From Calothrix sp. PCC 7103 (lineage in GTDB: Bacteria > Cyanobacteriota > Cyanobacteriia > Cyanobacteriales > Nostocaceae): a stretch of DNA of 64,000 bases. The DNA lies in contig NZ_KB217478.1 of the NCBI RefSeq assembly GCF_000331305.1, positions 3,871,315 to 3,935,314 of the forward strand, read 5' to 3'. The notes under the pieces were generated by a model, which did not search any database, had not been told where the DNA came from, and saw only the letters and a list, made by a program, of their open reading frames with translations. Shown in pieces: positions 1-64,000 of the stretch. How positions within the stretch are numbered: the stretch's first letter is position 1; each line of letters opens with the position of its first letter. The translations under genes and the position numbers were made by a program.

Positions 1-114
1 TTGCTTTTGCAAAAATCCTTCCATTTCTGGCGATAATTGAAGGTTTTCGGCATCAAGTAACAAAATCGCAATTCCTTTACTGCGAACAGTTGGCATTAGC
101 TCCTGTATCATCAT
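1..114 (-). CDS. N-terminus of a probable NYN-domain (PIN-like nuclease) protein, partial
   Basis: Only the first 38 codons lie in the window; the gene runs off its left edge. Reading the minus strand from ATG at 114 (a second ATG follows at 111) gives a frame open to the edge, with an in-frame stop 12 codons upstream. The peptide carries KGIAILLLDAENLQL. A hydrophobic strand ending in LLDAENL is how NYN/PIN-fold RNase-like domains usually begin (first catalytic Asp), a family common in cyanobacteria. The family call rests on this one motif, so it is tentative; the frame itself is well supported. Confidence 0.45.
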   Translation of the reverse strand, partial: MMIQELMPTVRSKGIAILLLDAENLQLSPEMEGFLQKQ

Positions 115-361
115 ATCCAGTTGGATACCAAAATTATACCTTAAGTTTTAATCTATAAAATTGATATCCGCAAAACTACTAGTTAAATTGATTCGTGATT
201 ATCTAGGGTAAGTAAAAACTGGAAATTAAACTTTTATAAATAATGTTAGTAATACCCCTGCTATTGGGAAAACTAAAAGCGTGGAAGTATATATATCTGA
301 TACTTCATAGTCGCTGACATTATGGTCGAGCCAATTAAATCAGGGTATAGAGGTAATTACT

Positions 362-544
362 GTGCAAAAATCTTTTAAAAAGCCCAAATTGATTAAAAAA
401 ATACCCCTGCGTCTGCTTCTTGTTATCCCGTTTGTCTTGCAAGTTTTTGCATCTGTCGGACTAGTAGGATATTTCTCGTTTGTTCGAGGGCAAAAAGCAG
501 TCAATAATCTGGCTAATCAGTTGATGGACAAAACAAGTCGTTAA
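362..544 (+). pseudogene. Truncated N-terminus of a sensor (histidine kinase-type) protein
   Basis: A 60-codon frame with GTG start: basic N-terminus (KSFKKPKLIKK), one strong membrane helix (LRLLLVIPFVLQVFASVGLVGYF region), then FVRGQKAVNNLANQLMDKTSR and a stop. Large cyanobacterial hybrid sensor kinases with an extracellular Cache-type domain often start this way, with GQKAVNDLA after the first helix. Here the sensor, HAMP and kinase parts are missing: the frame stops 2 bases before a palindromic repeat at 546-600, and the next gene is on the other strand. I read it as the stump of a kinase gene truncated at or near a repeat insertion. A genuine single-pass peptide is the alternative. Confidence 0.6.
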
Positions 545-545
545 A

Positions 546-600
546 TGTAGAGACGTATAATCCGCTCGTATTTCTCGAAAAGATTAATCACGTCTCTACA
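546..600. repeat. TGTAGAGACG-type palindromic repeat, copy 1 (expanded centre)
   Basis: The outer arms TGTAGAGACG (546-555) and CGTCTCTACA (591-600) match the 30-bp palindrome found elsewhere in the window (perfect copies at 29004 and 45595). The centre is longer and less symmetric here. It begins 2 bases after the stop of the truncated sensor fragment. Confidence 0.8.
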
Positions 601-622
601 ACAAATGTCACGAAACAACTAT

Positions 623-1402
623 TTATTTTACATGTTGGTGTTCAACCTGCACTGGCGCCTCAGATAATTTCCTTGCCATATTCAAAAACTCAGAAGGCAA
701 CATGACTACTGTAGTTGTATTATTCTCGGCGCCTACTTCTGTTAACATTTGTAAACGTCTTAACTCTAACGCGGCAGGATTCTGAGAAATTAATTTTGAA
801 GCTTCAGCTAATTTAATCGAAGCTTCTTGTTCTGCGTCAGCTTTAATTATCCGCGCGCGTTTCTCACGAATAGCTTCCGCTTCTTTTGCCATCGCACGCT
901 GCATCGAAGTAGGAATTTCAACATCTTTCATTTCCACCCGCTCGATAACTATACCCCACGGTTCGGTAATTTCATCAACGATTTCTTGAACTTTGACATT
1001 TATTTTGTCGCGGTTCTGTAATACGTCATCCAAAATATTCTGCCCAACCACGTTGCGTAAAGTCGTAAGTGCAGCTTGATATACAGCAACTTGATAATTC
1101 TCTACTTTGTTAATTGCTTTCGATGGGTCGAGAATTCGGTAGAACAGAACTGCATTGACACGAATTGTAACACTATCTGCAGTTACTGTTTCTTGCGGCT
1201 CAATATTTACTGTTTTTGTGCGGATATCAACTTGTGCTTTTTGATCGACAAAAGGTAATATCCAATACATTCCTGGTCCCATAACACCCTTAGTTCTACC
1301 TAAACGGAAAATAACTCCGCGTTGGTATTCTCTATCAAGCTTTATTCCTGATAAAGAAAGGATTATTAAGAAAGTGAAAAATGTACCTATAAGAGTTCCC
1401 AT
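623..1402 (-). CDS. SPFH/band 7 (slipin/stomatin-like) membrane protein
   Basis: This 259-residue protein has an N-terminal membrane helix (residues 3-20) followed by a band 7 domain: EYQRGVIFRLGR, GPGMYWILPFVD, VDIRTKTVNI and the conserved TADSVTIRVNAVLFYRI. A charged coiled-coil (AKEAEAIREKRARIIKADAEQEAS, about 165-195) follows, typical of slipins. These proteins form oligomeric membrane microdomains and often influence a partner protease (NfeD) or channel. No nfeD is adjacent, so the partner is unknown. The length is normal and the start lies directly before the helix. It is encoded alone, with divergent DNA upstream. Confidence 0.9.
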   Translation of the reverse strand: MGTLIGTFFTFLIILSLSGIKLDREYQRGVIFRLGRTKGVMGPGMYWILPFVDQKAQVDIRTKTVNIEPQETVTADSVTIRVNAVLFYRILDPSKAINKVENYQVAVYQAALTTLRNVVGQNILDDVLQNRDKINVKVQEIVDEITEPWGIVIERVEMKDVEIPTSMQRAMAKEAEAIREKRARIIKADAEQEASIKLAEASKLISQNPAALELRRLQMLTEVGAENNTTTVVMLPSEFLNMARKLSEAPVQVEHQHVK

Positions 1403-1560
1403 AGATGCTGACGTGATAAATGTATATCTTTATTTTATACTTCCTCTAATGGGTGAATATTAATACTCTCTTAAAACAAATTAATAAAGAAAATTTGTCA
1501 ATTGATCCCCAAATTGCACGGTAGATTGTAAACTGTGTAGAGGTCACTCGGATGTTAGTT

Positions 1561-1612
1561 TAAGGAGATATTAATGCCAATTATAAAATTGAGATTAAAA
1601 TTAAAATTTTAG
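1561..1612 (+). other. Strong RBS and 12-codon mini-ORF ahead of the transglycosylase, same frame, ended by TAG
   Basis: TAAGGAG at 1561-1567 is an excellent Shine-Dalgarno 6 bases before ATG 1574. That ATG opens a 12-codon frame ending in TAG 1610-1612. The frame is the same as that of the transglycosylase, whose possible starts (TTG 1616, ATG 1682) have weak RBSs. It could be a leader peptide or an N-terminal extension cut off by a nonsense mutation. The evidence is positional only. Confidence 0.35.
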
Positions 1613-1681
1613 AATTTGGTTCTCCTTGGCTCCAGTGATGCTAAAGTTGCATTCAATAAACGTCGTTTTCAGCGGGTCGAA

Positions 1682-3925
1682 ATGCTGAAGAAGCTACAAA
1701 AAAAGCAAATTTCTCTGATTGCGGGTGCTGGGTTGTGTGCCTTTCTAGCTGGAGCTTTAGTTTCAGCCCCTGAGATTGGCAAAAACTTTGGTAATTTGTT
1801 TAAATCTGGTAGGGACAAACCTGAACTCCTAACAGAGGAAACCAAAGCCAAATCAGCCGTACTACCTCTGGTTGTACAATCCCCGCAGGAACGGACGGCT
1901 AAACTTGAGGCTATTGCCAAAGGTTCTCCCTCAGATGACCGCAATCGCGCACGCTATCTTTTAGCCAGCGATTTAATTGAAAGTAAAGATGCCAAAAACG
2001 CCCTCAAGCATCTTGATAACCTTGAAAATGATTACTCACAACTGGCGCCTTACGTTATTCTCAGACAAGCACAAGCGCACGAAATGTTAGGAGAAGATGG
2101 CAAAGCATCAGATTTACGGCAAAAGGTAATCAAAGATTATCCAACGCACCCTGCTACAGGCAAAGCGCTTTATTTGATTAGCACTAAAGAATACCAAGAC
2201 CAAGCAATTGCTCAATTTCCATCACATCCTCTAACTTGGGAAATTATCAAGAAGCGCTTGGGCGAAAATCCTAACCAACCACAATTGCAGTTAGCATTGG
2301 CAAAATACTCGTTTGACCAACCGGGTATTACTGAAGTTTTGAACAAACTCGTCAATGACCCAACTCTCAAACCCGAAGAGTATGAAATTTTGGGAACTGC
2401 ATTTTGGGAAAATAATGAGTTTGGTAAAGCTTCAACCGCTTACAGCAAGGCGCCTCGTACTGCTCGCAATTTATACCGTGCTGGACGCGGTTTGCAAATT
2501 GGTGGAGAGCGCGAACAAGCTGCTGCGACTTATCAGGCATTAATTAGAGAATTTCCGGAAGCGCGAGAAACCGGAACAGCGTTAATACGAATGGCGGAAA
2601 TAACATCTAATAAAAAAGATGCGCTCCCATATCTTGACGCTGTTGTCAGTAAATTCCCTGATAAAGCAGGCGCCGCACTAGTTAAAAAAATAGAGATTCT
2701 CCAATCACAAAACGATGGCAAAGGTGCGGAAGCTGCACGCAAGCTATTAATTGACAAGTTTGGCAATACTGAAGAAGCTGCTGAATACCGTTGGAAAGTT
2801 GCTCTCGACAAAGCCAAAGCCAAAGATTTTAAAGCTGCTTGGCAATGGGCAGAACCAATTGCTACTAACAACCCCAATAGCATTTTGGCGCCGCGAGCAA
2901 GTTTTTGGGTCGGGAAATGGGCATTGCAAATTGGTAAACAAAACGAAGCCAAACAAGCATATGAGTACACAATTAGTAATTTTCCATACTCATATTACGC
3001 TTGGCGTTCAGCAGGGCTTTTAGGATTAAACGTCGGGAACTTCAACAATGTTAGGAATTTAAACCCGCAAGTTGTCGAGCTCGTGCGTCCTGTACCTACA
3101 GCAGGTTCAGAAACCTTTAAAGAATTATACCTGTTAGGACAAGACCGGGATGCTTGGTTACAGTGGAACACAGAATTCCAAAACAAAATGCAGCCAAGTA
3201 TAAACGAGCAGTTTACCGAAGGCTTAATGCAACTTGCAAGAGGTGAAAACCTTAAAGGTATTGACACAGTTTCGACGCTCGAAGACCGTGATGCACCTGA
3301 AGATTTAGCACAATATCAAGTACTAAAAAAACAGCTTATCTACTGGCAAGCGCGCTACCCCTTTCCATATATTGATATCATCGAAAAATGGTCAGCGCAG
3401 CACAAAGTCAACCCACTACTCGTCACAGCAATCATGCGTCAAGAGTCAAGGTTTGAGAAAAAAGCCAAATCAACAGCAGGCGCCACAGGCTTAATGCAAG
3501 TAATGCCAGCAACAGCCAAATTCATTGCACCACAAATTAAACAGGATATCAACAAAATTGAGCTTGAAAAACCTGAAGACAATATCATGTTGGGAACTTG
3601 GTATTTAGGACATACCCACGACCAGTACAAAGAAAACTCACTCCTGGCAATAGCATCTTACAACGCCGGTCCAGGTAACGTATCCAAATGGTTAACAACC
3701 TTACCAAAAGACGACCCCGATAACTTCGTCGAAAACATACCCTTTGACGAAACCAAAAACTACGTCCGTCAAGTCTTTGGTAACTACTGGAACTATCTGC
3801 GTTTGTACAATCCTGAAATTTCGCAAATTGTCGCGAAATACTCAACCGAACATCCCAAACTACCCCACGAAGGTTCACAAGACCAACCAGCAACACAACA
3901 AAAGACCGAAAAACCTAAACAATAA
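1682..3925 (+). CDS. Soluble lytic murein transglycosylase (Slt70-like) with TPR-type superhelix
   Basis: About 747 residues from ATG 1682. The N-terminus (LKKLQKKQISLIAGAGLCAF...) is a signal or membrane anchor. A long alpha-helical region with TPR-like repeats follows, including a run resembling tetratricopeptide units around DYPTHPATGKALYLI. The C-terminal SLT domain starts near residue 570: NPLLVTAIMRQESRFEKKA carries the catalytic Glu (in QES), then GATGLMQVMPATA and ASYNAGPGNVSKW. It would cleave peptidoglycan glycan strands with 1,6-anhydro products in the periplasm. The frame is open back to a TTG at 1616, but 1682 places the anchor at the N-terminus as usual for the family. A repeat begins directly at the stop codon. 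Confidence 0.92.
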   Translation: MLKKLQKKQISLIAGAGLCAFLAGALVSAPEIGKNFGNLFKSGRDKPELLTEETKAKSAVLPLVVQSPQERTAKLEAIAKGSPSDDRNRARYLLASDLIESKDAKNALKHLDNLENDYSQLAPYVILRQAQAHEMLGEDGKASDLRQKVIKDYPTHPATGKALYLISTKEYQDQAIAQFPSHPLTWEIIKKRLGENPNQPQLQLALAKYSFDQPGITEVLNKLVNDPTLKPEEYEILGTAFWENNEFGKASTAYSKAPRTARNLYRAGRGLQIGGEREQAAATYQALIREFPEARETGTALIRMAEITSNKKDALPYLDAVVSKFPDKAGAALVKKIEILQSQNDGKGAEAARKLLIDKFGNTEEAAEYRWKVALDKAKAKDFKAAWQWAEPIATNNPNSILAPRASFWVGKWALQIGKQNEAKQAYEYTISNFPYSYYAWRSAGLLGLNVGNFNNVRNLNPQVVELVRPVPTAGSETFKELYLLGQDRDAWLQWNTEFQNKMQPSINEQFTEGLMQLARGENLKGIDTVSTLEDRDAPEDLAQYQVLKKQLIYWQARYPFPYIDIIEKWSAQHKVNPLLVTAIMRQESRFEKKAKSTAGATGLMQVMPATAKFIAPQIKQDINKIELEKPEDNIMLGTWYLGHTHDQYKENSLLAIASYNAGPGNVSKWLTTLPKDDPDNFVENIPFDETKNYVRQVFGNYWNYLRLYNPEISQIVAKYSTEHPKLPHEGSQDQPATQQKTEKPKQ

Positions 3926-4040
3926 TGTCATTCTGAGCGTAGCGCTCCGGCGGAGCATTTAGAATCTCAACTACTATTCACAATACGAAAGATGCTACCC
4001 TACGGGAAAAGCTCCGCTTTACACTACGTTCAGCATGACA
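3926..4040. repeat. Intergenic inverted-repeat element (TGTCATTCTGAGCGTAGCG type)
   Basis: The element starts immediately after the stop of the transglycosylase with TGTCATTCTGAGCGTAGCG and ends near CGTTCAGCATGACA (4028-4040), its imperfect reverse complement. The interior contains GCTCCGGCGGAGC (3944-3956), a small perfect hairpin. It looks like a non-coding miniature element. Related CAGCATGACA text occurs at 39499-39567. Confidence 0.6.
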
Positions 4041-4177
4041 AGGACATTTTGGCGCCAGTAGATAATTTTCTTTACACAGATAATGTATAAGAAGATTTTA
4101 TAAGAAGTTTATGAAATTTTGACCGTGCTGTGGGAATCCTATAAAAGAAGCGATAGTATGCAGCACAAGGTGAGAAT

Positions 4178-7100
4178 ATGCCTTTAACTTCGAGAGTCCC
4201 AGGTTATGAAATTACAGAAGTAATTTATGAAGCTGAGAATACAACAGTATATCGAGCCAAATTGCAAAAAACTAACCTGCCTGCGATTTTAAAGGTTGTC
4301 AAGACAGAATTTTCAACCCCAGAGCAGGTTTATAGGCTAAAACGCGAGTTTAAGATTTGCGAAAACTTGAATTTGGAGGGAGTCGTCAAAGTTTACGGTC
4401 TAGAAAGCTCTGAAAATCAGCTTATTCTAGTAATGGAAGATTTTGGCGGCATTAGTCTTAAGGATTTTTTCTCCACACACACTTTATCCCTAGAAATTTT
4501 TCTTCTGATAGCCATACAGTTAGCAGAGTCTTTAGCATCTTTACACTCAAAACGCATCATCCATAAAGACATCAAACCTAGCAATATCATCATTAACCCA
4601 CAAACGCTACAAGTCAAAATCACTGATTTTAGTATCGCTGCAAGGTTTCAAGATGTTGAACTTGATAACTCAACTCAACTCGAAGGAACACTCTCATATA
4701 TATCTCCTGAACAAACTGGACGAATAAACCGCAAAGTTGATTACCGTACTGATTTTTACTCGCTAGGTATAACATTTTACGAGCTTTTAACAGGACAGTT
4801 ACCGTTTGCAAGTAATGACCCATTAGAAATTGTTTATGGACACACAGCGAAAAACCCAACACCAATTCGAGAATTAAGTCAAAACTTATATGAGGAAATT
4901 CCCGAAGATATTGAATCGATTATTACTAAGCTTATGGCAAAGAACCCAGACGCACGTTATCAAAACGCATCTGAGTTATTAGCTGATTTACAGCAGTGTT
5001 TAAATCAGTGGAAAAGCGCAGATAAGCTTACAAACAAAGTAATACTATCTAATCATATTTGTGAAGTATCGAGTACTACAACAAGTAAAGAAGTTTTAGA
5101 TTTAGCGACGGTTATCAAAGCAACGAGCGCAATATCAAGCGAAATAGTTCTCGATAAATTGCTTTTCAAATTGCTGCATATTATTATCGAAAACGCTTCT
5201 GCTCAAATTGGTTGTATTATTCTCGAACGTAATAACGAGTTATTTATCGAAGTCGCTGACACAAATCAAGATGTATCGGTAATTCAACTACAATCAACAC
5301 CCATCAATACTAGCAGCGATATTCCGGTTACAGTCATTAATTATGTTGCTACAACTAAAAAACCATTAGTACTAAGCGATGCAAGTCAAGAAAATATTTT
5401 TATAGAAGACCCTTATATTCTCAATAAACAACCCAAATCTATCTTATGTACACCGATTTTCTACCAAAATAAATTTCTTGGTGTTGTTTACCTAGAAAAT
5501 AACCATTATACAGGCGCCTTTACCCAAGAAAGACTGCAAATTCTCCAAGTTCTGACCTTACAAGCAGCTATTGCAATAGAAAACGCACGTTTGTTCAGCA
5601 CAGAACAACAAAAATCTCAACAGCTTGCTGAATCATTAAATAAACTAGCACAGCAAGAAGAACAATACCGTAACATCTTTGAAAACACCATTGACGGTTT
5701 AGCTATTTACGATTTAGAGTTGGGTAAATATCTTACTGTAAACCAAGCGCTTTGTGAAATTTACGGTTATGAAGCTTCGGAATGGTCAAATATTCAACTC
5801 CTAGATTTTATCCACCCAGACTCACAACATGTACTTGCTGAGTTTCTTGATATTCTCAACGCAGGTAAAGAATTTTACTGCGAAGCTGTAGTTATTCGTA
5901 AAGATGGAACATTAATAGACGTTGAAGTCAAAGCTAATGCTATTACCTATAACGGAAGACACTGTGCATTATCAGTATCGCGTGATATTACAGAACGTAA
6001 ACGAGTGGAAGCTGAACTGCGACAAAAAGAGGAACAGTATCGAGGAATTTTTGAAACAGTCACTGATGGTATTGGTATTTTTGACCTTGAAACTGGAAAA
6101 TTACTAGCATCAAATCCTGCTTACTACACAATGCATGGTTATACTTGTGATGAATTTATACGATTGAATCCCTTAGAATACATACATCCAAACTCGTATC
6201 ATTTATTTGGCGAGTGTATTAACGCGATAAAATCAGGTAAACCATATAGTTATCAAGCAACAGATATCCGCAAAAATGGCACTTTATTAGATATCGAAGT
6301 TAAAGGTATACCGTATTTGCTAAACAACAGTCCTTGTATTTTAGCAGTTGTACAAGATATTACAGAACGCAAACGCACCTTAGAAGCACTCTCACAACGC
6401 TCTCAAGAACTTGAGCAAACCTTATTAAAACTCCAGCGTACCCAATCTCAACTTGTCCAAACCGAAAAAATCTCTCAACTCGGACAACTCGTAGCAGGTG
6501 TTGCCCACGAAGTAAATAACCCTGTTAGTTTTATCAACGGTAACTTAACCCATGCAAAACAATATATTGAAGACCTAGTAAACCTAGTCAATTTATACCA
6601 AGAAAAATATCCTAATCCTGATAGCGAAATAGAAACCGAAATCGAACATATAGACCTTGACTTTCTACTCGAAGACCTGCCCAAACTAATCATCTCAATG
6701 AAATTAGGCACCGACCGCATTCGTGATATAATGCAGTCGCTTCGTAATTTTTCGCGTTCAGATACAGGTGAAAAAACTCAAATTGATATTCATCAAAGTA
6801 TCGACACAACTTTGATAGTACTCTCTCACCGTCTCAAAGCAAAACCCGAACGCCCAGCAATTCAAATTATTAAACAGTATGGAAAATTACCATTAGTTCC
6901 GTGTTTTTCTGGTCAAATTAACCAAGTATTTATGAACTTACTCGCCAACGCTATCGATGCATTAGAAGACTCAAATACTGGTAAAAGTTACTTAGATATT
7001 GAGAAAAACCCTAATCAAATTAAAATAACCACCGAACTAGTAAACGATTTTACATCTTACATTCAAATTAAAATTGCCGATAACGGTTTAGGAATGACCG

Positions 7101-7282
7101 AAGAAGTCCGCCAAAAATTATTTGATGCATTTTTTACTACCAAAGTAGAAGGCAAAGGTACAGGTTTAGGACTATCAATAAGTAACCAAATCATCAGAGA
7201 AGCACATAATGGCAAACTAGAATGTTTTTCATTACCTGGAAAAGGCGCCGAATTTGTTATCAAACTCCCACTAACTCACTAA
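4178..7282 (+). CDS. Serine/threonine kinase-GAF-PAS-PAS-histidine kinase (Hstk-type)
   Basis: This is a 1034-residue multidomain signalling protein. Residues 9-275 form a Hanks-type kinase: HKDIKPSN (129-136), DFS in place of DFG (150-152), then LSYISPEQ and DFYSLGITFYELLTG. A GAF domain (about 320-475) is followed by two PAS domains (about 500-610 and 625-735), both ending in DITERKR. A coiled linker then leads to HisKA, with the H-box VAGVAHEVNNP (His near 777), and HATPase_c with NLLANAID, ADNGLGM and GKGTGLGL (near 991). Most cyanobacterial proteins of this kind carry a large AAA/TPR segment between the Ser/Thr kinase and GAF; here the kinase runs almost straight into GAF. There is no receiver domain and no adjacent regulator. 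The signal is unknown. Confidence 0.92.
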   Translation: MPLTSRVPGYEITEVIYEAENTTVYRAKLQKTNLPAILKVVKTEFSTPEQVYRLKREFKICENLNLEGVVKVYGLESSENQLILVMEDFGGISLKDFFSTHTLSLEIFLLIAIQLAESLASLHSKRIIHKDIKPSNIIINPQTLQVKITDFSIAARFQDVELDNSTQLEGTLSYISPEQTGRINRKVDYRTDFYSLGITFYELLTGQLPFASNDPLEIVYGHTAKNPTPIRELSQNLYEEIPEDIESIITKLMAKNPDARYQNASELLADLQQCLNQWKSADKLTNKVILSNHICEVSSTTTSKEVLDLATVIKATSAISSEIVLDKLLFKLLHIIIENASAQIGCIILERNNELFIEVADTNQDVSVIQLQSTPINTSSDIPVTVINYVATTKKPLVLSDASQENIFIEDPYILNKQPKSILCTPIFYQNKFLGVVYLENNHYTGAFTQERLQILQVLTLQAAIAIENARLFSTEQQKSQQLAESLNKLAQQEEQYRNIFENTIDGLAIYDLELGKYLTVNQALCEIYGYEASEWSNIQLLDFIHPDSQHVLAEFLDILNAGKEFYCEAVVIRKDGTLIDVEVKANAITYNGRHCALSVSRDITERKRVEAELRQKEEQYRGIFETVTDGIGIFDLETGKLLASNPAYYTMHGYTCDEFIRLNPLEYIHPNSYHLFGECINAIKSGKPYSYQATDIRKNGTLLDIEVKGIPYLLNNSPCILAVVQDITERKRTLEALSQRSQELEQTLLKLQRTQSQLVQTEKISQLGQLVAGVAHEVNNPVSFINGNLTHAKQYIEDLVNLVNLYQEKYPNPDSEIETEIEHIDLDFLLEDLPKLIISMKLGTDRIRDIMQSLRNFSRSDTGEKTQIDIHQSIDTTLIVLSHRLKAKPERPAIQIIKQYGKLPLVPCFSGQINQVFMNLLANAIDALEDSNTGKSYLDIEKNPNQIKITTELVNDFTSYIQIKIADNGLGMTEEVRQKLFDAFFTTKVEGKGTGLGLSISNQIIREAHNGKLECFSLPGKGAEFVIKLPLTH

Positions 7283-7527
7283 TTAATCCCCCAACATAAC
7301 GCACGAAAGGGGACTTGATCAAATAAAAGTAGACGCGGTATTTTATAAAGAAGGATAAAGAAGGATAATGTAGATATATTATATAGATATACATAAAATG
7401 ACGCATACTATCTACTCAAGAATCCCTGACTATTGAGTTAAAAAGTTATAGGTCGCGTTTACCAGACCGAAAATTAATAGAAACTAATTTGCTATATAAA
7501 AATATAAGATACTTTACTCTCGTTTAA

Positions 7528-7839
7528 CTATTCAATTAACCACTCGGCCGCACGCTCACCTAAGTCAAGTGGTATACTAACAGCTTTACCTAAGCGTGGT
7601 TTTTCGCGCGTTTGTAGAATAAACGCTTGTACTTGGGATGTGCCACCCATCGCGTTTAAATAGTTCGCTACGTCATCTAAATGCGCTTGATACTCCCCTT
7701 CACTCAGTGGGAAAGAGGCTTGCTCTGCATACTTCCACATTATTTGGATAAATATTTTACCCTGTGTACGGCGAAATTGTACATCGTATGAGTATCCCCA
7801 CTTATCGATTAACATCTGGCGCAGTTCTTGTCCTGTCAT
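7528..7839 (-). CDS. DUF3067 family protein
   Basis: A 103-residue protein starting MTGQELRQMLIDKWGYSYDVQ, with the family core FIQIMWKYAEQASFPLSEGEY and YLNAMGGTSQVQAFI. DUF3067 is a small soluble family of cyanobacteria and plastid-bearing plants with no established biochemical function that I know of. It sits divergently from the cytochrome b6f operon petC-petA, with a 286-base shared upstream region. That placement makes a thylakoid or electron-transfer role plausible, but this is inference. Length and both ends fit the family. Confidence 0.85.
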   Translation of the reverse strand: MTGQELRQMLIDKWGYSYDVQFRRTQGKIFIQIMWKYAEQASFPLSEGEYQAHLDDVANYLNAMGGTSQVQAFILQTREKPRLGKAVSIPLDLGERAAEWLIE

Positions 7840-8092
7840 AAATTTATTACCCCCACAATAATTTTACAATTTGTGATGATGTTAATTTACGTAACTCAAG
7901 TATGATAAGAATATAAAGAAATGTAATGCTACCATAAAAGATGCTGGGATTATCTCGCTTCATGAGAGAGTTCGGCAGGGTGAAAGCGCGTTGCACTAGG
8001 GTTCCCTTGTGTTCGTGCTGCCATATGAAATTGTGGGTCATGGCATCTAGATAAGACTAGAGTCTCAAGATAAAGTTAGAACTCAAGTCTAT

Positions 8093-8108
8093 TTTGTTAA
8101 CAAAATAA
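8093..8108. promoter_or_regulatory. Perfect 16-bp palindrome upstream of petC (possible operator)
   Basis: ATTTTGTTAACAAAAT reads identically on both strands and lies 17 bases before the petC start codon. AT-rich DNA can form such palindromes by chance, but the position, in the leader of a photosynthesis operon, suits a regulator site or a short mRNA hairpin. No known consensus is assigned. Confidence 0.3.
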
Positions 8109-8125
8109 ACAAAGAACCTAAGATT

Positions 8126-54862: not shown

Positions 54863-54897
54863 AATATTATATTTCTGTGAACCTGCCCCTACTTCGT

Positions 54898-55536: not shown

Positions 55537-55557
55537 ACCCATTACACAAAAGATACA

Positions 55558-55580
55558 GGGTGGGCATAAAACGCCCACCC
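55558..55580. terminator. GC-rich hairpin after hisG
   Basis: GGGTGGGC (55558-55565) pairs with GCCCACCC (55573-55580) around a 7-base loop. It lacks a U-tract, and CACAAG follows as in the other members of this intergenic family. Confidence 0.55.
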
Positions 55581-55591
55581 CACAAGAACCC

Positions 55592-56293: not shown

Positions 56294-56308
56294 ACTATAA
56301 GAAAGATT

Positions 56309-59300
56309 TTACTTTGAAAATCTGACTTTGTAGGTGTTGATTTTCCAGGGTTTAATTGATGACTCAGTACTCTGTAGAGGACGTTCTAATAAATCGACAG
56401 GCGCCTCTAATACTATACCAAAATCACTTTGCGCTTTAATTTCTGTTTCTTTTCCGTTACATTCATAACATCGAAGTATCCACTTATCAGAATCTTCAGC
56501 TTGTTTAAAAGCCATTAAAACAAGATTTTCGCTGCCTAAATTCAAAAAGCTGATACTATCTTTACTTGACTCCAAGCCAGATGTAACATCCTCACGCATA
56601 ACAACTTGTAACGGAGTATTTAATTCATACCCTTTTTGTACTGTTTGCGCTTCTTCCCAACTACCTGCATGAGGATACACAGCATACGTAAATTCATGCA
56701 TTCCTTTATCAGCTTCGGAGTCTGGCCATTCGGAACCTCGCAGTAAAGTTAATCGAAGTTGATTTGGTGTTGCGTCGTAGCCATATTTACAATCGTTCAA
56801 TAAACTAATACCGTATGAATTCGAGGTTGTTAAATCAGCCCATTTCAATGCTGGTACTTCCCATTTCGCTTTTTCTTCAGGAGTTTGGGGTTTTGTTGTA
56901 CGCTGAATGGCGCCACAAGGTATTTCATAAGTGGCAAAATCTGATTCAATATTAAGAGGAAAAGCAGCTTTAACTAAAACGTGACGTTCTTGCCAATTAA
57001 CGTGCGTTGCTATTTTGAGATACCGAGAACCTTTATCTAAAATATAATCTTGGCAAAACTCTGAGTTACCAATAGTACGAACCACACGTAAACAAGATTG
57101 AATGACACCTCTATCCAACCATTCTATAGATTTTAACTGTGTAGCTGGTAAAGGATGCTGTGCGTAATTAGGGTCTATATTCCAACCATCCCAATATTGA
57201 CCACTATCTTTCCAGCTTTGGAGTTGATTTCCGGCGCCATTAAGAATTTCTTTTTGTTTAACTAGGTCGTATATACTATCTAAATCCCCAGTCTTTTCAT
57301 TGACAACTACCCGTAGATATTCATTTTCTAAAGAAAATCCTTGAAATTCAGGTGTAGTAATGTTATCAGATGTACTTGGGCAAAGCCAAAAAATACTGTA
57401 ACCAAGAGAGGGTATATTTTCAGCAAGAAATAATAGTTTAAATGAGTTGCTTAACTGCGAAGGTATTATAGCGTCTGAAGAATAAACACAAGCAAAAGAA
57501 AAAGATTCGGGTAAGTCTACACAAACAACTTCACTACGTGACCAGTTTAGGGAATTAAAAACAAAAATTGGTTTAGCGTCTTTGTGTGGTGGTATAGGTA
57601 AAGGCGCCTGAAGTGCAATTTCGTGTAAAGATTTGTGTAAAATCTCAGTTCCGACTCTTTCAACCTCTTGCCATTCGGGTAGTGCATCAGTATAAACTTC
57701 GGTAATTGATGAACCTGGTAATATATCGTGGAACTGGTTGAATAATAACTTTTTCCAAGCAGCTTCCAATTCAGCTTTTGGATATTTCACTCCACAACGA
57801 ATATTTGCCCATGCAGCAAAAATTTCTGCCTCATATAATAAAATCTCAGACTTTCGGTTGAAGCGTTTTTGGTCGGCATGTGTAGTGTAACAACCCCGAT
57901 GAAATTCCAAATATAATTCATCATTCCACGTAGAGACGCGATTAATCGCTTCTCTACACGTATTTTGGATGTGACGTAAATAATTTTCGGCAGTAGTAAA
58001 TTCTAATTTAGGGAAAACCTCAGATTTTTGCCAGCGTTGAGCGATTTCCAACATATCACGAGTGGGTCCACCACCGTGGTCGCCAACACCAGGAAGCCAA
58101 AGTGCGTCTTTCATACCAGTTTGAGTTTCCCACTCACAGCTATACGCAGCCATTTTTTCTGGGTCAATACCTTCCCCAATAAGTCCCGACATATAACTAA
58201 ATATCTCACTACCATCAGGAGAACGCCATAAAAAGGCGCCTTTCTGAAATTTGGTAGTATCATTCCATCGTAATTTCTGAGTCACAAAATATTCAATACC
58301 AGCAGAAACCATAAACTGTGGTAATGTCCAGCAAAAACCAAACGTATCGGGTACCCAGACAATAGGAGAAATTTTGCCAAACTTTTCTTGGGTGTAGCGC
58401 TGCCCATAAAGAAGTTGTCGAACTATTGACTCTCCCGAAATCAAATTTAAATCAGGTTCGACCCAAAAGCCTCCTAAAACTTCCCATCTACCAGCTTTAA
58501 CTGTAGCTAGTATCTGAGCAAATAAATCAGGACGATTTTCTTCTACCCAAGCATACAAAGCGGGAGTTGAGTGACAAAAAACCAAATCAGGAAAATCCTG
58601 CTGTAACTTTAATACTGACTCAAAAGTATTTTGTGCAGCGCGCCAAGTTTCTTCAACTTGCCATAACCAGGCCATATCTAAATGCGCGTGACCGAGGAGA
58701 TATATTTTTTTAGATTTAAAATCCCCTGATACTTTAAGATACTCTCTCTCTCTGTCCTCTGTGTCTCCGTAATAAAACTCATTAACAGCTTCAGCCAACA
58801 CAGATAACTTATCAGGAGCAAAAGTCTCCAAATACTGTTTAACAACAGCAATCTCCGAAGCAACGAAACCGGGGTCATCAGCACTTGAAGACTCAAAAAC
58901 GAGATGCGAGCGCATCAAGGCGCCCCTATCATGCAACGGACTAACTAAGCGCAGCGCTACAATAAAATCATCGCCACCTGTAACTGCTTCCGACAACAGT
59001 ACACGTGGTGAAAAGTCAAACAAATCTCCGGCGGCAACAAGTTTACCATTAACATAAACTTGCACATCTTCTGCCCACCATACCAAAGCCAAACGTAAAG
59101 ACTTTCCTTGTAATGAATAGCTTGACACCAAACATTCGGGAACAGTAATCTTCTGCGCTAACCATAAAATCCTGCGTCCAGATTCCCAAGCAATATGTCC
59201 TTTATCGTTAGTACTGGCGCCGTTCCATTTTGATATATCTTCTTGAAATACCTGATTTGCCGTCAAATCTAAAAGTGAATATCGCCAAGCAGGTTGAACC

Positions 59301-59380
59301 TCGGTTTGGCATAGGGCGCGGAGGTTATCAATTGCGGTGATAATTGATTTGGTATCAATTGCAGGGTTTTGAGGAGTCAT
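56309..59380 (-). CDS. GH38 alpha-mannosidase
   Basis: 1023 residues. HAHLDMAWLWQVEETWRA (231-248) has the zinc/catalytic His-x-Asp and WVPDTFGFCW (Asp about 346) the nucleophile. DHGGGPTR and the C-terminal beta-rich domains (about 620-1023) fit bacterial and eukaryotic GH38 enzymes. It would trim alpha-mannosides, likely in glycogen- or polysaccharide-derived material, in the cytosol as no signal peptide is seen. A palindromic repeat inside the gene (57930-57957) codes CREAINRVSTWND and adds about ten residues; the frame stays open. Confidence 0.92.
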   Translation of the reverse strand: MTPQNPAIDTKSIITAIDNLRALCQTEVQPAWRYSLLDLTANQVFQEDISKWNGASTNDKGHIAWESGRRILWLAQKITVPECLVSSYSLQGKSLRLALVWWAEDVQVYVNGKLVAAGDLFDFSPRVLLSEAVTGGDDFIVALRLVSPLHDRGALMRSHLVFESSSADDPGFVASEIAVVKQYLETFAPDKLSVLAEAVNEFYYGDTEDREREYLKVSGDFKSKKIYLLGHAHLDMAWLWQVEETWRAAQNTFESVLKLQQDFPDLVFCHSTPALYAWVEENRPDLFAQILATVKAGRWEVLGGFWVEPDLNLISGESIVRQLLYGQRYTQEKFGKISPIVWVPDTFGFCWTLPQFMVSAGIEYFVTQKLRWNDTTKFQKGAFLWRSPDGSEIFSYMSGLIGEGIDPEKMAAYSCEWETQTGMKDALWLPGVGDHGGGPTRDMLEIAQRWQKSEVFPKLEFTTAENYLRHIQNTCREAINRVSTWNDELYLEFHRGCYTTHADQKRFNRKSEILLYEAEIFAAWANIRCGVKYPKAELEAAWKKLLFNQFHDILPGSSITEVYTDALPEWQEVERVGTEILHKSLHEIALQAPLPIPPHKDAKPIFVFNSLNWSRSEVVCVDLPESFSFACVYSSDAIIPSQLSNSFKLLFLAENIPSLGYSIFWLCPSTSDNITTPEFQGFSLENEYLRVVVNEKTGDLDSIYDLVKQKEILNGAGNQLQSWKDSGQYWDGWNIDPNYAQHPLPATQLKSIEWLDRGVIQSCLRVVRTIGNSEFCQDYILDKGSRYLKIATHVNWQERHVLVKAAFPLNIESDFATYEIPCGAIQRTTKPQTPEEKAKWEVPALKWADLTTSNSYGISLLNDCKYGYDATPNQLRLTLLRGSEWPDSEADKGMHEFTYAVYPHAGSWEEAQTVQKGYELNTPLQVVMREDVTSGLESSKDSISFLNLGSENLVLMAFKQAEDSDKWILRCYECNGKETEIKAQSDFGIVLEAPVDLLERPLQSTESSIKPWKINTYKVRFSK
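57930..57957. repeat. TGTAGAGACG-type palindromic repeat, copy 8, inside a coding sequence
   Basis: GTAGAGACGCGATTAATCGC followed by TTCTCTAC, 28 bp with one mismatch. Located in the GH38 gene between HIQNT and WNDELYLEF, which are otherwise conserved flanks, so it inserted and was retained in frame. Confidence 0.9.
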
Positions 59381-59574
59381 ATTTGAGCTAATATATTTCA
59401 GTCTTTAACTTGAATAAAGATTTGATGCTGAATCTAATATGCTTTTTTAACACCTATTAAGTATTTACGTATTTTAAATTTTAGTTATAAAAGCTATTTA
59501 ATACAGGTAGTATAGTTTCAGTTTGACCAATCACGCTTATTTTCAGTCAGTCGTTTACAGTTTCCATTTTTATC

Positions 59575-60981
59575 ATGACTTCCAGTCGCTATCAAAGCAG
59601 GCTTTTTAACTTTTTCTCCCGCCAGTCGCAGCGTTTCGGTGACTCGGCGGGACGCACTTGGCGCACAATACGAGTTACTGCTAATTGGTCGTTAGAAGCA
59701 TTACTTTATCCTGTATTTGCACTGATTCAGAAAGCTGTAAATTCTGCTGATAAACAACTTGGACACGCAGAGGCGCCGCAACAAAGGCAGTTAAATTCAG
59801 ACAATAATACTATTAAGAACACAAGTACTCTTGATTGTGATACAGCAATTGTCCATATGCTGGAAATGGTAAAAAAAATACCATCACGCCCTCAAAAAAG
59901 TATAAACTCTGTACCAGAAAAATTAGATTACGTAAAATATCATCAGCAATTAGAAACAAATGATACAGTAAAAGCGTATTTATCAAAAGTGCAAGGAATT
60001 GCAACTCATTTAGGAAATAAACATATAGTATTGATAACAGAAGATAATAAAGTGCTTGATATACTCACTTTAAAGCAGCAGCAAATGATACAAGATAAAA
60101 TAGTGGCGGAGGTAGCGGAGTATTGGCGATTATGGCATTCCATAAGCAAGCAAGTACAGTCTAACAAAAATTTATTACCTGAAATAGACCAATTACTACA
60201 TAAATTAACAGGCAGCAATATAATTCCAACTGAACACAACTCGAAACAAAATCAAGAAATTGTTACACAATTATCTACACAATCATATATATCTGGTCTA
60301 GATACTTTTGTTGCTCACCTCGAATCGAGCATGTTAACCGTGAGGCGCCATCATCAAAATCAAAGCTTGGTAGCAGAAATTGGTGCGCTCGTCATGAACA
60401 CCATTAATCACTTTTTTGGCAAATCTAAAGTTAATAGTCAACACGGCGAAGTTACAAATAATCAATTACATCCGTCATATAACGCAACATTGCCGAAGTT
60501 AAAGCAGGTAGCAAACGAAACTGAAGACTTATGGTTGACATTTGACGATTTGTTTGGAGAAGAGCTACGGAGTGAAAATCAACCAGTCTCAACCAATAAG
60601 CGTCTAGCTTTTAGCCCAAGCCAAAGACTATTAAATCAATCTTGTCATGATGAACAACAAGCGAAGCCAAAAGTTAGTCAAATGGTTAAGAGCAGTTACA
60701 TAAAGGGTAATTTAACTCATAACCCCAAAAAACCTGCTATAACTCAACAAGTCGAATCAGATACTCTAATTTTGAATCTTATAGATAGCGTTAACATAAA
60801 ACAAGCTCATCAAATACCTACTTCAGATGATAAACCTGAATTTGTGGAAATTAGAGCAACGAGCGTCAGGTACGAGAAACATATCTTGGAAAGGATTTTG
60901 GAGTGGTTGGATAATTTGATGCTGTGGTTAGAGGATAAATTCGTAAGAATACTTAAGTTAATTCAGCAAATCTTCACGTAA
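59575..60981 (+). CDS. Cyanobacterial hypothetical protein
   Basis: 468 residues. The N-terminus is basic with aromatic residues (SSRYQSRLFNFFSRQSQRFGDSAGRTWRTIRVTANWSLEALLYPVFALI), perhaps a membrane-associated amphipathic helix. The middle and C-terminus are polar, with conserved KYHQQLETNDTVKAYLSKVQGIATHLGNKHIVLITEDNKVLDILT and LWLTFDDLFGEEL, ending in a hydrophobic-charged helix (RILEWLDNLMLWLEDKFVRILKLIQQIF). I do not recognise a family. It is monocistronic. Confidence 0.7.
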   Translation: MTSSRYQSRLFNFFSRQSQRFGDSAGRTWRTIRVTANWSLEALLYPVFALIQKAVNSADKQLGHAEAPQQRQLNSDNNTIKNTSTLDCDTAIVHMLEMVKKIPSRPQKSINSVPEKLDYVKYHQQLETNDTVKAYLSKVQGIATHLGNKHIVLITEDNKVLDILTLKQQQMIQDKIVAEVAEYWRLWHSISKQVQSNKNLLPEIDQLLHKLTGSNIIPTEHNSKQNQEIVTQLSTQSYISGLDTFVAHLESSMLTVRRHHQNQSLVAEIGALVMNTINHFFGKSKVNSQHGEVTNNQLHPSYNATLPKLKQVANETEDLWLTFDDLFGEELRSENQPVSTNKRLAFSPSQRLLNQSCHDEQQAKPKVSQMVKSSYIKGNLTHNPKKPAITQQVESDTLILNLIDSVNIKQAHQIPTSDDKPEFVEIRATSVRYEKHILERILEWLDNLMLWLEDKFVRILKLIQQIFT

Positions 60982-61268
60982 AATTAGAAGTTAACTAAAT
61001 ATGTAGCCAACAAATGACCTATATTGTTTTTATATTTTTATAAACATGCCAACACAAGTGAGATACAGAGCGATGAGTTAACAAGTAACGTTTATCTATG
61101 CAAGGGGGTAGAATGTATTTCAAATGCTTTTCTACAATAATTCTAAATCTACTTGCGTAATATATTGTGAATGCAGTATTATAAATAACTTTGACAATTT
61201 GAAGAGAAAAGCATTGTTCAATGTAACAATAACAATGCTTATTTCGTATACTTTGATGAGATTGTAAC

Positions 61269-62051
61269 ATGAGTGATACTACTACCGAGACCTCGCCACC
61301 AGCTTCCAACCCACCATTGTCTCAACCGATTCCAAAACCAACCCAGCCACAGCAGTATCGAGCTATTGGCTTATTGTGGGGAAAATACACTCCTAGCGCT
61401 GAAGAAATCAACAAGGGAATATTGCTTGCACCTGACGGTACAATCATCGACGCGGTTGTTAAGGGTAAAGTCCTTGGTTTGGTGAAATCGTCAATCGTCG
61501 ATTTGGAGAAAGAGCATTTGTGGGTAGTTTACCCAAAAACCCCTAAAGAAGAATCTCCTATACCTCTACACGTTCAGATAGCGGGTATTTGGGAACCAGA
61601 AACTCTTCATCCAGAATTGGAAAAAACAGACTTGCTATATAAAGCAGATGAATTTTCGATACAAGGGGAAGTAGTTTTTCAAGAAAACCAAAAAGGCTTA
61701 ATAGTAGTTAAGATACAACGGGCTGCGCTTCAACCTGATGATGTGCCAAAATACTTCAAGCTTAAACTACTGGGATATTTGCCACCTAAAGCTGCAAAAA
61801 ACTTTTGGGAGTTCAAGGTCAAACGTGTGGGTACCGATTTAGTGATTCAGTCAGCCGAAAATATTGCATCACTGGCGCCTCCAGGAAAACCAGGAGGTTT
61901 TGGGCGCAAACCCTTTGATAAAAATAGAGGAGGAGGTTATCGTCGTCCACCAGATGGCGGTTCAAAGAAACCTTTTCCCAAAAAAGTCCCAGGTTCTAAT
62001 GCTCCAAGTGGTCCAACACAACCACCTGTCCTTAAAAAACCACAGCCTTAG
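61269..62051 (+). CDS. Cyanobacterial hypothetical protein with proline-rich ends
   Basis: 260 residues. After a Thr/Pro-rich start, RAIGLLWGKYTPSAEEINKGILLAPDGTIIDAVVKGKVLGLVKSS begins a globular domain with alternating strands (WVVYPKTPKEES, IPLHVQIAGIWEPETL, LKLLGYLPPKAAKNFWEFKVKRVG). The C-terminus is a Gly/Arg/Pro-rich linker (KPGGFGRKPFDKNRGGGYRRPPDGGSKKP) suggestive of nucleic-acid binding or a scaffold. Function unknown. It is followed 53 bases later by another proline-rich gene on the same strand, probably one operon. Confidence 0.7.
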   Translation: MSDTTTETSPPASNPPLSQPIPKPTQPQQYRAIGLLWGKYTPSAEEINKGILLAPDGTIIDAVVKGKVLGLVKSSIVDLEKEHLWVVYPKTPKEESPIPLHVQIAGIWEPETLHPELEKTDLLYKADEFSIQGEVVFQENQKGLIVVKIQRAALQPDDVPKYFKLKLLGYLPPKAAKNFWEFKVKRVGTDLVIQSAENIASLAPPGKPGGFGRKPFDKNRGGGYRRPPDGGSKKPFPKKVPGSNAPSGPTQPPVLKKPQP

Positions 62052-62104
62052 AATAAAAAAAGAACGGTTAGCAGCAGTAATTTTAAGTAGCATTATCCTT
62101 CGGT

Positions 62105-62752
62105 ATGCCTAAATCAAAATCAAAATCCAATAAAGACTCCTCTCAACCAGAAACTCCTTCTGCACCGGAGCAGCAACTGTTGAGTATTAAACCCAAAAGA
62201 CCTCAGCAGGATGTGTTGGCTGACGCAGAAAAAACAAGTCCGCCACCAGTTGAGCAAAAATTACTAAGTATCAAACCTAAAAAGACTGAAGAAGTTCTAC
62301 CGCCATCTGAAACTCAGTCCCAGTCTACTTCTGTTCCCGAAGCTACACAAACGAACTTAAAGCGCCCTGAATCGGCTCTAGAAAAAGAGCTTACACCCCT
62401 ATCCCAGGCACCTTCTGAGTCGGCTTCGGTGCAGAAAGAAGTTACAGAAAACCAAGAAGACAGACCGCAAAAACCAGCATTTCAAAAACCGCAGCTTAAA
62501 AAGCCACAACCACCTCCATACAAGAATTTAGAGGAAGTGACCATAAGCAGTGGAGAAACATTTATTGTTGGAGAGCAAGTCAAAGTTACAACTGCCAATT
62601 ATGGCGAATACGTTGTAGCAATTAAGTTTATATACGAAGCTGCTGATGGTAGCGTTTGGGCTAGTTATTCCCATACCAACAAAGAACAAAGACACCCTTG
62701 GCGATGGGGATGTTGTCGAGCAGATTTACTTAAAAAAGAGTTAAACGAATGA
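62105..62752 (+). CDS. Proline-rich hypothetical protein with C-terminal beta-rich domain
   Basis: 215 residues. The first 150 are low complexity and highly charged, with a duplicated unit (EQQLLSIKPKRPQQD and EQKLLSIKPKKTEE). The last 65 (ISSGETFIVGEQVKVTTANYGEYVVAIKFIYEAADGSVWASYSH, then HPWRWGCCRADLL) look like a compact beta-barrel fold. The function is unknown. It follows the related proline-rich gene at 61269-62051 and precedes a convergent DUF3769 gene; a shared scaffold role of the pair is possible. Confidence 0.65.
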   Translation: MPKSKSKSNKDSSQPETPSAPEQQLLSIKPKRPQQDVLADAEKTSPPPVEQKLLSIKPKKTEEVLPPSETQSQSTSVPEATQTNLKRPESALEKELTPLSQAPSESASVQKEVTENQEDRPQKPAFQKPQLKKPQPPPYKNLEEVTISSGETFIVGEQVKVTTANYGEYVVAIKFIYEAADGSVWASYSHTNKEQRHPWRWGCCRADLLKKELNE

Positions 62753-62764
62753 TATAAAAAAACT

Positions 62765-64000
62765 TTATCGTTGCTCCACACCACCAACTACTGGTTTAAC
62801 CTCAGTCGGATCAGAAAATGGGTCAGTACCACCAGTCCAGTTAAAGTCACTAATGCGGAAACTAATGCCTCCTAATTCTTGAACAGGATTGTAGCGTAGC
62901 GTAATACCGTAAGTACGACGACTGTACTCTAACGAATATTCGGTGCTAAGACTTTGCCCATTATCAAGGTTGATTGAGGTTTGAAGCCCAAGTCGGAATG
63001 GTCCGTAAATTTGTTGAACCACACCTAGGTTTAGTACTTTGTTATCAACTGCACGGTCAAATAGAAACGGCGACAAACCGTTATTTAAACCTTGAGTATA
63101 GCTAACATTAAAGGCTGTGTAATCTAAGAAGGGTTTGGAAAAATTGCCAAATTGTCCTTGTATACCAGCGGTAGCAAGTAAAGTGCTTTGATTATTACCG
63201 CTGGTATAAAAGCTAGTCGTACCATTGAGTTCACCGTAAGCGGTTATGTAAGGTACAAGTGGGTTAGGTGTATAGCGCAAACCTTCAGTTGGTGTAGGAG
63301 GTAATGCTTTTCCTCTCCATAAAGGCAACCCACCAAAGAGTCTGGCATTAGTTTGAAATCGTCCTAAAGAAATGCGGTCATTATCGCGTCTGGCTGCCAA
63401 AAGGTCTAATCTATCTGTATTTGCATCAATTAATTGAGCGCTGGCTTGATAGGTCAAATTTATACCACTTTTGCCTAAAGGTATAACAGGTGATAGAAGT
63501 ACACCTCCTAAACTGCTTTGCACTCGTTGAAAACCAAGTGTTCCGTTATAGAACCTATCGCGGTAGCTGTATTCTAAGTTTAGAATATGCGGGTTTTGGG
63601 CGCCGAGTGCTTGTTGATATCGCAAATTAGCCCGAAAAGTATCCTCAATTTTACTGAAGTCTAAAGTCTCAAATCTGGCATTTCCTTCAAAGCGACTTGT
63701 TGGACTCAAAACAGCATTCAGCCGAGATTTTAGACCAAACAGCGAAGCAAAATTATCGCTTCCAGTTATTGCCTTTTGAGCATAAAACTGTGGTGTTATT
63801 GTGAAACTAGACGTATCAGAACTAAATGCTTCAAAGCTTCGCTCGACAAATATACCACCACGCTGTTCACCGTCATATCCAATTGATGCGATTAGTGGTG
63901 TAACATCGCGTTCTCTACGGTCAATTACCTGCTCATTTCTAGGAATTGGTAGAGTTGTGCGTTGGTCAAAGACTAACCGTTGTCCTTGTGTTTTTATTCT
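62765..64000 (-). CDS. DUF3769 outer-membrane-type protein, partial (N-terminus beyond window)
   Basis: 412 codons, open from the right edge to a stop at 62765. The frame continues upstream of the TTG at 63709 (residues such as FVERSFEAFSSDTSSF and ITPQFYAQKAITGSDNF), so the window holds only the C-terminal part. The repeated aromatic/polar alternation (YTAFNVSYTQGL, YSLEYSRRTYGITLRYN, ISFRISDFNWTGG) is that of an outer-membrane beta-barrel. DUF3769 is a cyanobacterial family distantly like LptD. Function: probably lipopolysaccharide export or cell-envelope barrel, by family. Confidence 0.75.
   Translation of the reverse strand, partial: RIKTQGQRLVFDQRTTLPIPRNEQVIDRRERDVTPLIASIGYDGEQRGGIFVERSFEAFSSDTSSFTITPQFYAQKAITGSDNFASLFGLKSRLNAVLSPTSRFEGNARFETLDFSKIEDTFRANLRYQQALGAQNPHILNLEYSYRDRFYNGTLGFQRVQSSLGGVLLSPVIPLGKSGINLTYQASAQLIDANTDRLDLLAARRDNDRISLGRFQTNARLFGGLPLWRGKALPPTPTEGLRYTPNPLVPYITAYGELNGTTSFYTSGNNQSTLLATAGIQGQFGNFSKPFLDYTAFNVSYTQGLNNGLSPFLFDRAVDNKVLNLGVVQQIYGPFRLGLQTSINLDNGQSLSTEYSLEYSRRTYGITLRYNPVQELGGISFRISDFNWTGGTDPFSDPTEVKPVVGGVEQR

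Follow-up and report, generated by a model that had tools for sequence, protein, structure and literature searches.

The hexamer GGCGCC is the highly iterated palindrome (HIP) of the cyanobacterial genus Calothrix, in which it stands in place of the octamer HIP1 (GCGATCGC). This exchange, which is well supported by word counts in seven genomes, was followed up from a 64,000-nucleotide stretch of Calothrix sp. PCC 7103 (contig NZ_KB217478.1, positions 3,871,315 to 3,935,314, forward strand; hereafter the window). In the genes that we compared between species of the genus, GGCGCC sites are protected from decay. HIP1 was described in 1995.

The swap of HIP1 to GGCGCC has already been published for one strain. 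In the text available to us, Elhai 2015 (PMC4390886) describes the word GGCGCC as an "alternate HIP" of Calothrix PCC 7103, a genome depleted in HIP1, CGATCG, and GATC and equipped with two GRCGYC-type methyltransferases; the methyltransferase idea is likewise Elhai's. The genome that we analyzed shares the word, the same depletions, and the presence of two methyltransferase homologues. What is new here is the genus-wide presence of the word, the measured maintenance of its sites, the mutational footprint at base 3, and the finding that the enzyme is an orphan. Beyond Elhai 2015, we found no work on GGCGCC or on an alternate HIP in Calothrix in a search by titles and the beginnings of abstracts, which left subscription journals and preprints mostly uncovered.

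Abundance of GGCGCC in genic and non-genic DNA

The window holds 99 copies of GGCGCC, within one of the approximately 98 counted by eye in a preliminary description of the same letters. Base composition (39.5% GC) predicts 3.8 copies and a maximal-order Markov model predicts 49, and the word is the most over-represented 6-mer of the window (26-fold, among 6-mers with at least 10 occurrences). HIP1 does not occur in the window, and its core, CGATCG, occurs a single time, both as that description had stated. Using simple open reading frame (ORF) calls made for the present analysis, we assign 42, 26, and 23 of the sites to the three reading phases and 8 to DNA outside ORFs.

Across 464 kb of the source contig, window included, GGCGCC numbers 733 against 25 expected. 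The 632 genic copies exceed the 34.8 left after synonymous-codon shuffling by 18-fold (23-, 14-, and 16-fold by phase), and the 102 non-genic copies exceed the 2.3 predicted by base composition by 44-fold. Because the excess over synonymous shuffles appears in each phase, codon bias is excluded as its cause, in line with the preliminary claim that the enrichment goes beyond a codon effect. The rest of the genome also departs from expectation, with 17,704 copies in 11.58 Mb and only 8 copies of the reversed control word. In the same 464 kb, GATC is reduced to 103 copies from 1636 expected (6%) and GGCC to 93 from 662 (14%). For PCC 7103, the available text of PMC4390886 gives GATC at 16%, a weaker depletion than ours, together with 14 HIP1 and 159 CAGGCGCC per Mb (Table 2 of that paper); our corresponding densities are 14 HIP1 per Mb (163 copies in the genome) and 163 CAGGCGCC per Mb (464 kb).

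Presence throughout the genus

All seven Calothrix-genus genomes (G000 to G006, G000 being the one that holds the window) carry GGCGCC at 1150 to 1711 per Mb (7,475–20,380 copies per genome), together with 31 to 163 copies of HIP1 (4–23 per Mb). Six other genera of the family, each represented by one genome, carry 3 to 127 copies of GGCGCC and 4,807 to 7,721 of HIP1. The swap is reciprocal in all seven genomes, and sites persist from one species to another; on these two grounds the preliminary suggestion that GGCGCC may be a replacement for HIP1 is well supported.

As far as its accessible text goes, Elhai 2015 (PMC4390886) records the GGCGCC word in 1 of 97 genomes and in 19 kb of Calothrix D253, and describes exceptional HIPs as sporadic rather than gathered in clades, a point that is used there as an argument for a function of HIP1. 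The presence of the word in every genus genome contradicts this description for GGCGCC, although sporadic occurrence was an observation of Elhai's and not part of a definition. In the traits that do define an alternate HIP, all seven genomes conform: the word is a GC-rich palindrome within the range of approximately 500 to 2500 per Mb, HIP1 is low or absent, and a methyltransferase is predicted for the word (with its specificity taken from homology alone). Identity with HIP1 itself is ruled out by the counts of that octamer in the window and the genome.

Retention of sites between species

To describe how the sites fare over time, we used 42 orthologue sets around rpoBC, which represent one part of the chromosome, in a genus that spans 81 to 97% nucleotide identity. 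Expectations were taken from codon-matched change. At approximately 95% identity, 96 of 111 sites are kept (57% expected); at approximately 87%, 81 of 110 (29% expected) and 82 of 100 (25% expected); and at approximately 81%, 36 of 76 (13% expected). Gene-bootstrap intervals for the excess retention exclude zero in all six sets compared, and within this chromosomal region GGCGCC is thus protected from decay. Losses by any route other than the base-3 transition occur at 0 to 0.4 of expectation, with the exception of losses to GCCGCC/GGCGGC, which run at 4.4, 1.9, and 0.74 of expectation in three of the six sets (3, 2, and 13 events).

For three near-words used as controls, retention is 0 to 1.5 times expectation, and for AGCGCC/GGCGCT it is 0 to 0.4 times. 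GGTGCC/GGCACC is short-lived in the comparison with G003, where 4 of 108 positions are kept and 60 of 108 read GGCGCC in that genome; compared with G001, however, retention is 36 of 172, close to expectation (both counts are pooled over non-independent pairs).

Occupancy and spacing

In G000, GGCGCC fills 647 of the 1274 positions at which synonymous codons would allow it (49%, 49%, and 55% by phase). The corresponding fractions are 307/580 in G002, 289/504 in G003, 122/217 in G004, 99/191 in G006, and 69/192 in G001, so that about half of the protein-permitted positions are occupied (36–57% by genome). In the HIP1-bearing relative G012, GGCGCC fills 2 of 422 accessible positions, and HIP1 itself fills 129 of 192. 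Protein positions of the rpo block that are shared between genera give the same picture: five genus genomes have 17 to 22 of 38 to 42 occupied, and four HIP1 genera have 0 of 36 to 41 (G001, G005, G008, and G011 were left out for coverage). As the number of accessible positions does not differ between the two groups, we rejected the idea that GGCGCC has shaped protein sequence. HIP1-accessible positions in the same block number 10 to 13 in the four HIP1 genera and 6 to 8 in the five genus genomes, small numbers that give a hint that HIP1 does so.

Neighboring sites are occupied almost independently of each other. For accessible pairs more than 30 bp apart, joint occupancy is 0.82 to 1.10 of independence in three groups comprising six genomes, and at 12 to 30 bp it falls to about half (14 seen, 26.6 expected; four groups). 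G001 departs from this pattern, with 2 pairs seen at 30 to 150 bp and 7.0 expected. In G000, gaps of less than 50 bp make up 3.3% of all gaps versus 8.9% in a placement null, and occupancy stays at 0.53 to 0.70, without a fall, as the distance to another site grows from 100 to 1000 bp. A 1-kb spacing rule was rejected, as clear exclusion between pairs is seen only below 30 bp.

Plasmid pieces are at least as rich in the word as the chromosome. Those of three named plasmids, 25 kb in all, carry 1.9 and 2.1 GGCGCC per kb, and three additional short pieces from other contigs carry 1.45 to 1.8 per kb; the plasmid pieces had been chosen for their methyltransferase genes. Inside genes the odds of a site are shifted roughly 37-fold (2.7% expected, 51% seen, from slightly different ORF sets), which is comparable to the non-genic excess. 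A similar shift in all phases, in non-genic DNA, and on plasmids fits a weak drive acting on DNA or an equally weak, uniform selection, and does not agree with a rule of one site per kb.

An orphan methyltransferase at one shared locus

Cytosine-5 (C5) methyltransferases were searched in 13 genomes, and those of the fetched loci were clustered. One cluster has members in all seven genus genomes, where the gene lies at the same locus between a RuBisCO-like gene and a gene of 684 aa. The locus copy is intact in G000 to G005, and these six copies share at least 81% identity. In G000, the methyltransferase gene spans C7:8004469–8005407. In G006, the two ends of the gene (residues 1–85 and 209–313, 98% and 96% identical to G000) lie at contig ends and the middle is unassembled; a second, complete copy in this genome (83% identical) was rejected as the locus orthologue in favor of this split gene. 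In a tree with 26 of the 27 other homologues included, the six intact copies and the complete G006 copy form one side of a branch with support of 100/99. Further copies occur in G000, G002, G003, G005, and G006, three of them on named plasmids, and no homologue at E 1e-40 was found in G007, G008, or G013 to G016. Around these genes, we observed that the RuBisCO-like neighbor resembles 2,3-diketo-5-methylthiopentyl-1-phosphate enolase (locus L040, 8181–9374; families checked in two genomes), and that a broken HindV-type copy on a plasmid of G002 adjoins a DpdA-like gene (locus L056, 1892–3680).

By its sequence, the genus enzyme is a BsaHI/HindV-type C5 methyltransferase of the GRCGYC family. 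The G000 protein has a PF00145 domain, and all seven genus rows (that of G006 being the second copy) contain the five C5 motif strings as in HindV-type enzymes. The pattern RR[GA]x6P[SA]PT[IV]x3NRP around the TL motif is present in all seven rows, in both plasmid-borne HindV-type enzymes, and in all 27 other homologues. In the available text of Neely and Roberts 2008 (PMC2413257), the R and G/A near the TL motif are placed eleven and nine residues upstream; in the present enzymes, they stand 11 and 10 residues from the T of that motif. That paper also reports that M.BsaHI methylates the central C of GRCGYC, that is, GG(m5C)GCC. With the likeness to this family, it is probable that the genus enzyme methylates the third base in the same way.

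The genus protein is 54 to 57% identical, over 96% of its length, to methyltransferases of two enterobacterial plasmids, both of which have a HindVP-family endonuclease as neighbor; among the nearest homologues outside the genus, such an endonuclease, in some cases broken, adjoins 19 of the 27 whose loci we examined. No HindVP-family endonuclease was found in any of the seven genus genomes by a search that was positive in all four chosen control genomes and negative in G071. From this absence, the methyltransferase is an orphan. The system thus resembles BsaHI/HindV restriction-modification in its methyltransferase and the residues around the TL motif but differs from it in lacking the endonuclease and in having its sites enriched rather than avoided. 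HindVP is described as inactive in vitro in the accessible part of PMC2413257.

The loss of a CGATCG methyltransferase from the genus is indicated by the available account of Elhai 2015 (PMC4390886) and by the distribution of our C5 clusters. The putative CGATCG-enzyme cluster is represented in G007, G008, and G014 to G016 and has no member among the fetched genus loci (a few of the short genus fragments, and the majority of the G013 matches, lay outside this clustering).

A mutational footprint at base 3

If base 3 carries 5-methylcytosine (m5C), its deamination would yield GGTGCC or GGCACC. The density of this pair is 3.2 times that in the HIP1 relative G012, and the other eight one-step neighbors stand at 0.25 to 0.75 times. 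Relative to composition it ranks first among the nine neighbors in all seven genus genomes (1.05–1.98), narrowly so in G004. Within the genus, GGTGCC or GGCACC makes up 27 of the 38 one-step alternatives at the 38 site columns that were aligned in the rpo block. We also considered whether GGCGCC sites arose by conversion of old HIP1 sites and rejected this idea, as none of the 38 columns overlaps HIP1 in six outgroups. From G000 to G003, we counted 7 base-3 changes (9.8 expected) and, for the remaining eight classes combined, 5 changes (38.8 expected). Over four single pairs, the base-3 change runs at 0.45 to 1.16 of codon-matched expectation and the base-6 transition at 0.09 to 0.22, with base 3 exceeding base 6 in 95 to 100% of gene bootstraps. 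This pattern is as would be expected of m5C deamination at base 3 on top of a general protection. We read the 15 GGTGCC/GGCACC neighbors in the window as decayed or not-yet-formed GGCGCC sites.

The enzyme in the wider order

Our order-wide sample comprises 388 genomes, 3 from the genus and 385 from outside it. A homologue of the methyltransferase is present in 112 of them, of which 72 also have a HindVP sequence. The median GGCGCC density is 2.4 per Mb in these 72 and 26 per Mb in the 37 non-genus genomes with the homologue alone, which indicates that the endonuclease goes with avoidance of the word and its absence with relief from avoidance, not with enrichment. Outside the genus, the homologue-bearing genomes reach 2,497 GGCGCC per Mb in G071, 132 in G148, and at most 70 in the remainder. 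Fewer than 50 HIP1 per Mb are found in 19 of the 388 genomes (a tally read from the count tables); 6 of these have the homologue (three genus genomes, G071, G148, and G350), and the 13 without it reach at most about 250 GGCGCC per Mb. The enzyme, even where HIP1 has been lost, does not force GGCGCC, and time, expression, or a further factor matters beside it.

Only two of the 385 non-genus genomes, G071 and G128, exceed 1,000 GGCGCC per Mb. G128 has approximately 1,075 per Mb at 65% GC, with 23 copies seen and 24 expected in 20 kb. A third genome, G181, combines approximately 530 per Mb with 15,293 HIP1. G071, from another family of the order (54% GC), was considered as a second independent GGCGCC case and rejected: it has 9,489 copies of GGCGCC, 74 HIP1, and a HindV-type homologue without a HindVP match, but AGCGCC is enriched as strongly as GGCGCC, and its word is CGGCGCCG/CAGCGCCG. 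This pair is another alternate HIP, with 127 CGGCGCCG in 111 kb (loci L275–L279, L316, and L322; observed/expected 38), and it is not among the alternate HIPs in the available text of Elhai 2015 (PMC4390886). Three congeners of G071 have 3,110 to 3,424 HIP1 and no methyltransferase homologue; of the four congeners sampled, three have more than 3,000 HIP1 and G019 has 134. G148 was rejected as an intermediate, with 9 sites in 54 kb and 5.6 expected.

How the word may be maintained

We consider the best reading, to which we assign a probability of about 0.5, to be that the orphan methyltransferase marks GGmCGCC and that a force acting on each site, probably biased repair coupled to methylation, keeps the sites in place. 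In outline, HIP1 and the restriction partner would have been lost before or together with the later steps; the orphan BsaHI/HindV-type enzyme at its fixed locus would methylate base 3; methylation-coupled biased repair or gene conversion would turn near-sites into sites and mend decayed ones; and the resident methyltransferase would thereby decide which word becomes the HIP. The last two steps, taken as the force and as the choice of word, we propose tentatively, at somewhat less than even odds. A broader generalization is more doubtful: HIP words may be self-written signatures of a resident orphan C5 methyltransferase, GmC together with biased repair acting as a drive toward roughly half-saturation, plasmids included, with each permitted position filled independently and without a selected function.

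Several of our results weigh against methylation and repair as the explanation. Selection would predict protection from decay just as well. In 27 near-site windows where the genomes are unanimous, we saw 0 gains against 0.01 expected, and gains are unpolarised. The repair step has no candidate protein: the Vsr endonuclease (PF03852) was absent from all 21 genomes searched, in a search that was positive in 5 of 14 named control genomes. As for the footprint, the base-3 change stands out only through suppression of all the other classes but one and does not rise above expectation, and part of the 3.2-fold excess of GGTGCC/GGCACC reflects its low level in G012 (0.46 of composition). The pair is also high by composition outside the genus (3.4 in G148, 2.0 in G048), and the base-6 transition product AGCGCC/GGCGCT is unstable as well, the partner genome having GGCGCC in 24 of 61 and 24 of 68 cases. 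The remaining GRCGYC members are depleted (GACGTC, 7 vs 62 expected; GACGCC/GGCGTC, 26 vs 79), and the same depletion is found in G012, which has no homologue. Finally, of the 109 non-genus genomes with a homologue, 108 lack enrichment (at most 132 GGCGCC per Mb) and one, G071, has a different word; G148 has lost HIP1 and has the homologue without a HindVP match, yet its 872 sites in 6.6 Mb are near expectation, and G350, which has lost HIP1 and has the homologue with a remnant endonuclease, has only 9 sites. The preliminary idea of a dedicated maintenance mechanism such as a methyltransferase has no more than indirect support, from an orphan C5 gene in seven of seven genus genomes and a footprint at the expected base, and it does not extend to these 108 genomes.

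The foremost alternative is direct selection, in which a cellular protein for recombination, nucleoid structure, or repair needs about one GGCGCC per 600 to 700 bp, each site is kept by selection, and the methyltransferase is either a bystander or has that function too. Retention far above the codon-matched expectation and persistence of the word across the whole span of divergence in the genus speak for it, and statistical analyses in PMC6604393, as far as its available text goes, are said to support selection for HIP1 itself. Similar occupancy in the three phases, near-independence beyond 30 bp, and the 44-fold non-genic excess look instead like a drive at the level of DNA, plasmid pieces are at least as dense in the word as the chromosome, and no GGCGCC-binding protein was found, although no search was aimed at one. 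We regard direct selection as possible but doubtful.

The specific model of Elhai, in which GmeC-directed mismatch repair reaches about 1 kb and makes sites until every base is within 1 kb of one and no further, appears unlikely in that form. It needs a methylated central C, which the available text of PMC4390886 assumes and to which our footprint and the biochemistry of M.BsaHI now lend support, and both the density of 1.15 to 1.71 sites per kb and the scarcity of close pairs in G001 suit it. A stop at one site per kb, however, predicts something other than the flat occupancy of G000 from 100 to 1000 bp and the near-independence beyond 30 bp in six of seven genomes. Our measurements therefore bear on the gap that Elhai states, namely which C is methylated, and weaken the proposed stop at about one site per kb. 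A word for DNA uptake or transfer, of the kind found in Haemophilus and Neisseria, would agree with a genus-specific motif that is also present on plasmids, but GGCGCC is a perfect palindrome without a strongly conserved flank. To our knowledge, uptake words are longer and not palindromic, and we consider this explanation highly improbable. Least probable by far is a bias of base composition, codons, or amino acids: although GGC and GCC codons are frequent in places rich in sites, the excess over synonymous shuffles in all phases, the non-genic excess, and the contrast between genus and HIP1 genera at shared rpo-block positions refute it.

Compared with HIP1 and its DmtA/DmtC methyltransferases, the GGCGCC system shares a GC-rich palindrome at about 1 per kb in genic and non-genic DNA, with a methylated core in the case of HIP1, and differs in its word and its methyltransferase. 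The ScmA/VsrA system of Caulobacter, in the accessible text of PMC12907096, is alike in having an orphan C5 enzyme, thousands of GC-rich palindromes, and an invoked repair partner; it differs in that partner, as no Vsr was found in our 21 genomes. Relative to Elhai 2015 (PMC4390886, available text), between-species maintenance is measured here and not there. If methylation and repair do maintain the word, the Calothrix genus would amount to a swap experiment done by nature, in which HIP1 was exchanged for GGCGCC and the new word was kept through species divergence. The words were exchanged cleanly, the orphan methyltransferase has a fixed locus, and the methylated base can be predicted; whether a HIP is a function or a by-product thereby becomes a question for the bench.

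Other features of the window

The coordinates of the words discussed above and of one gene pair are collected in Table 1. Searches of the 64-kb window for Rfam families and tRNA genes returned no matches.

Table 1 Positions of GGCGCC, related words, and a candidate gene pair in the window
Feature	Number	Span	First	Last	Strand	Basis or location
GGCGCC sites	99	654..63604	654	63599	palindrome, both strands	91 inside predicted ORFs, 8 outside
CGATCG (HIP1 core)	1	28081..28086			no strand	word count
GGTGCC/GGCACC one-step neighbors	15	6707..62412	6707	62407	no strand	word count
Candidate restriction-modification pair		36306..38788				protein family matches

The gene pair is likely a restriction-modification system, judging from its matches: the type II methyltransferase (PADLOC, E 8e-137) comes first, and after it an endonuclease of the XcyI family (PF09571, E 9e-24). 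XcyI recognizes CCCGGG, a word that occurs once in the 464 kb, where 25 copies are expected.

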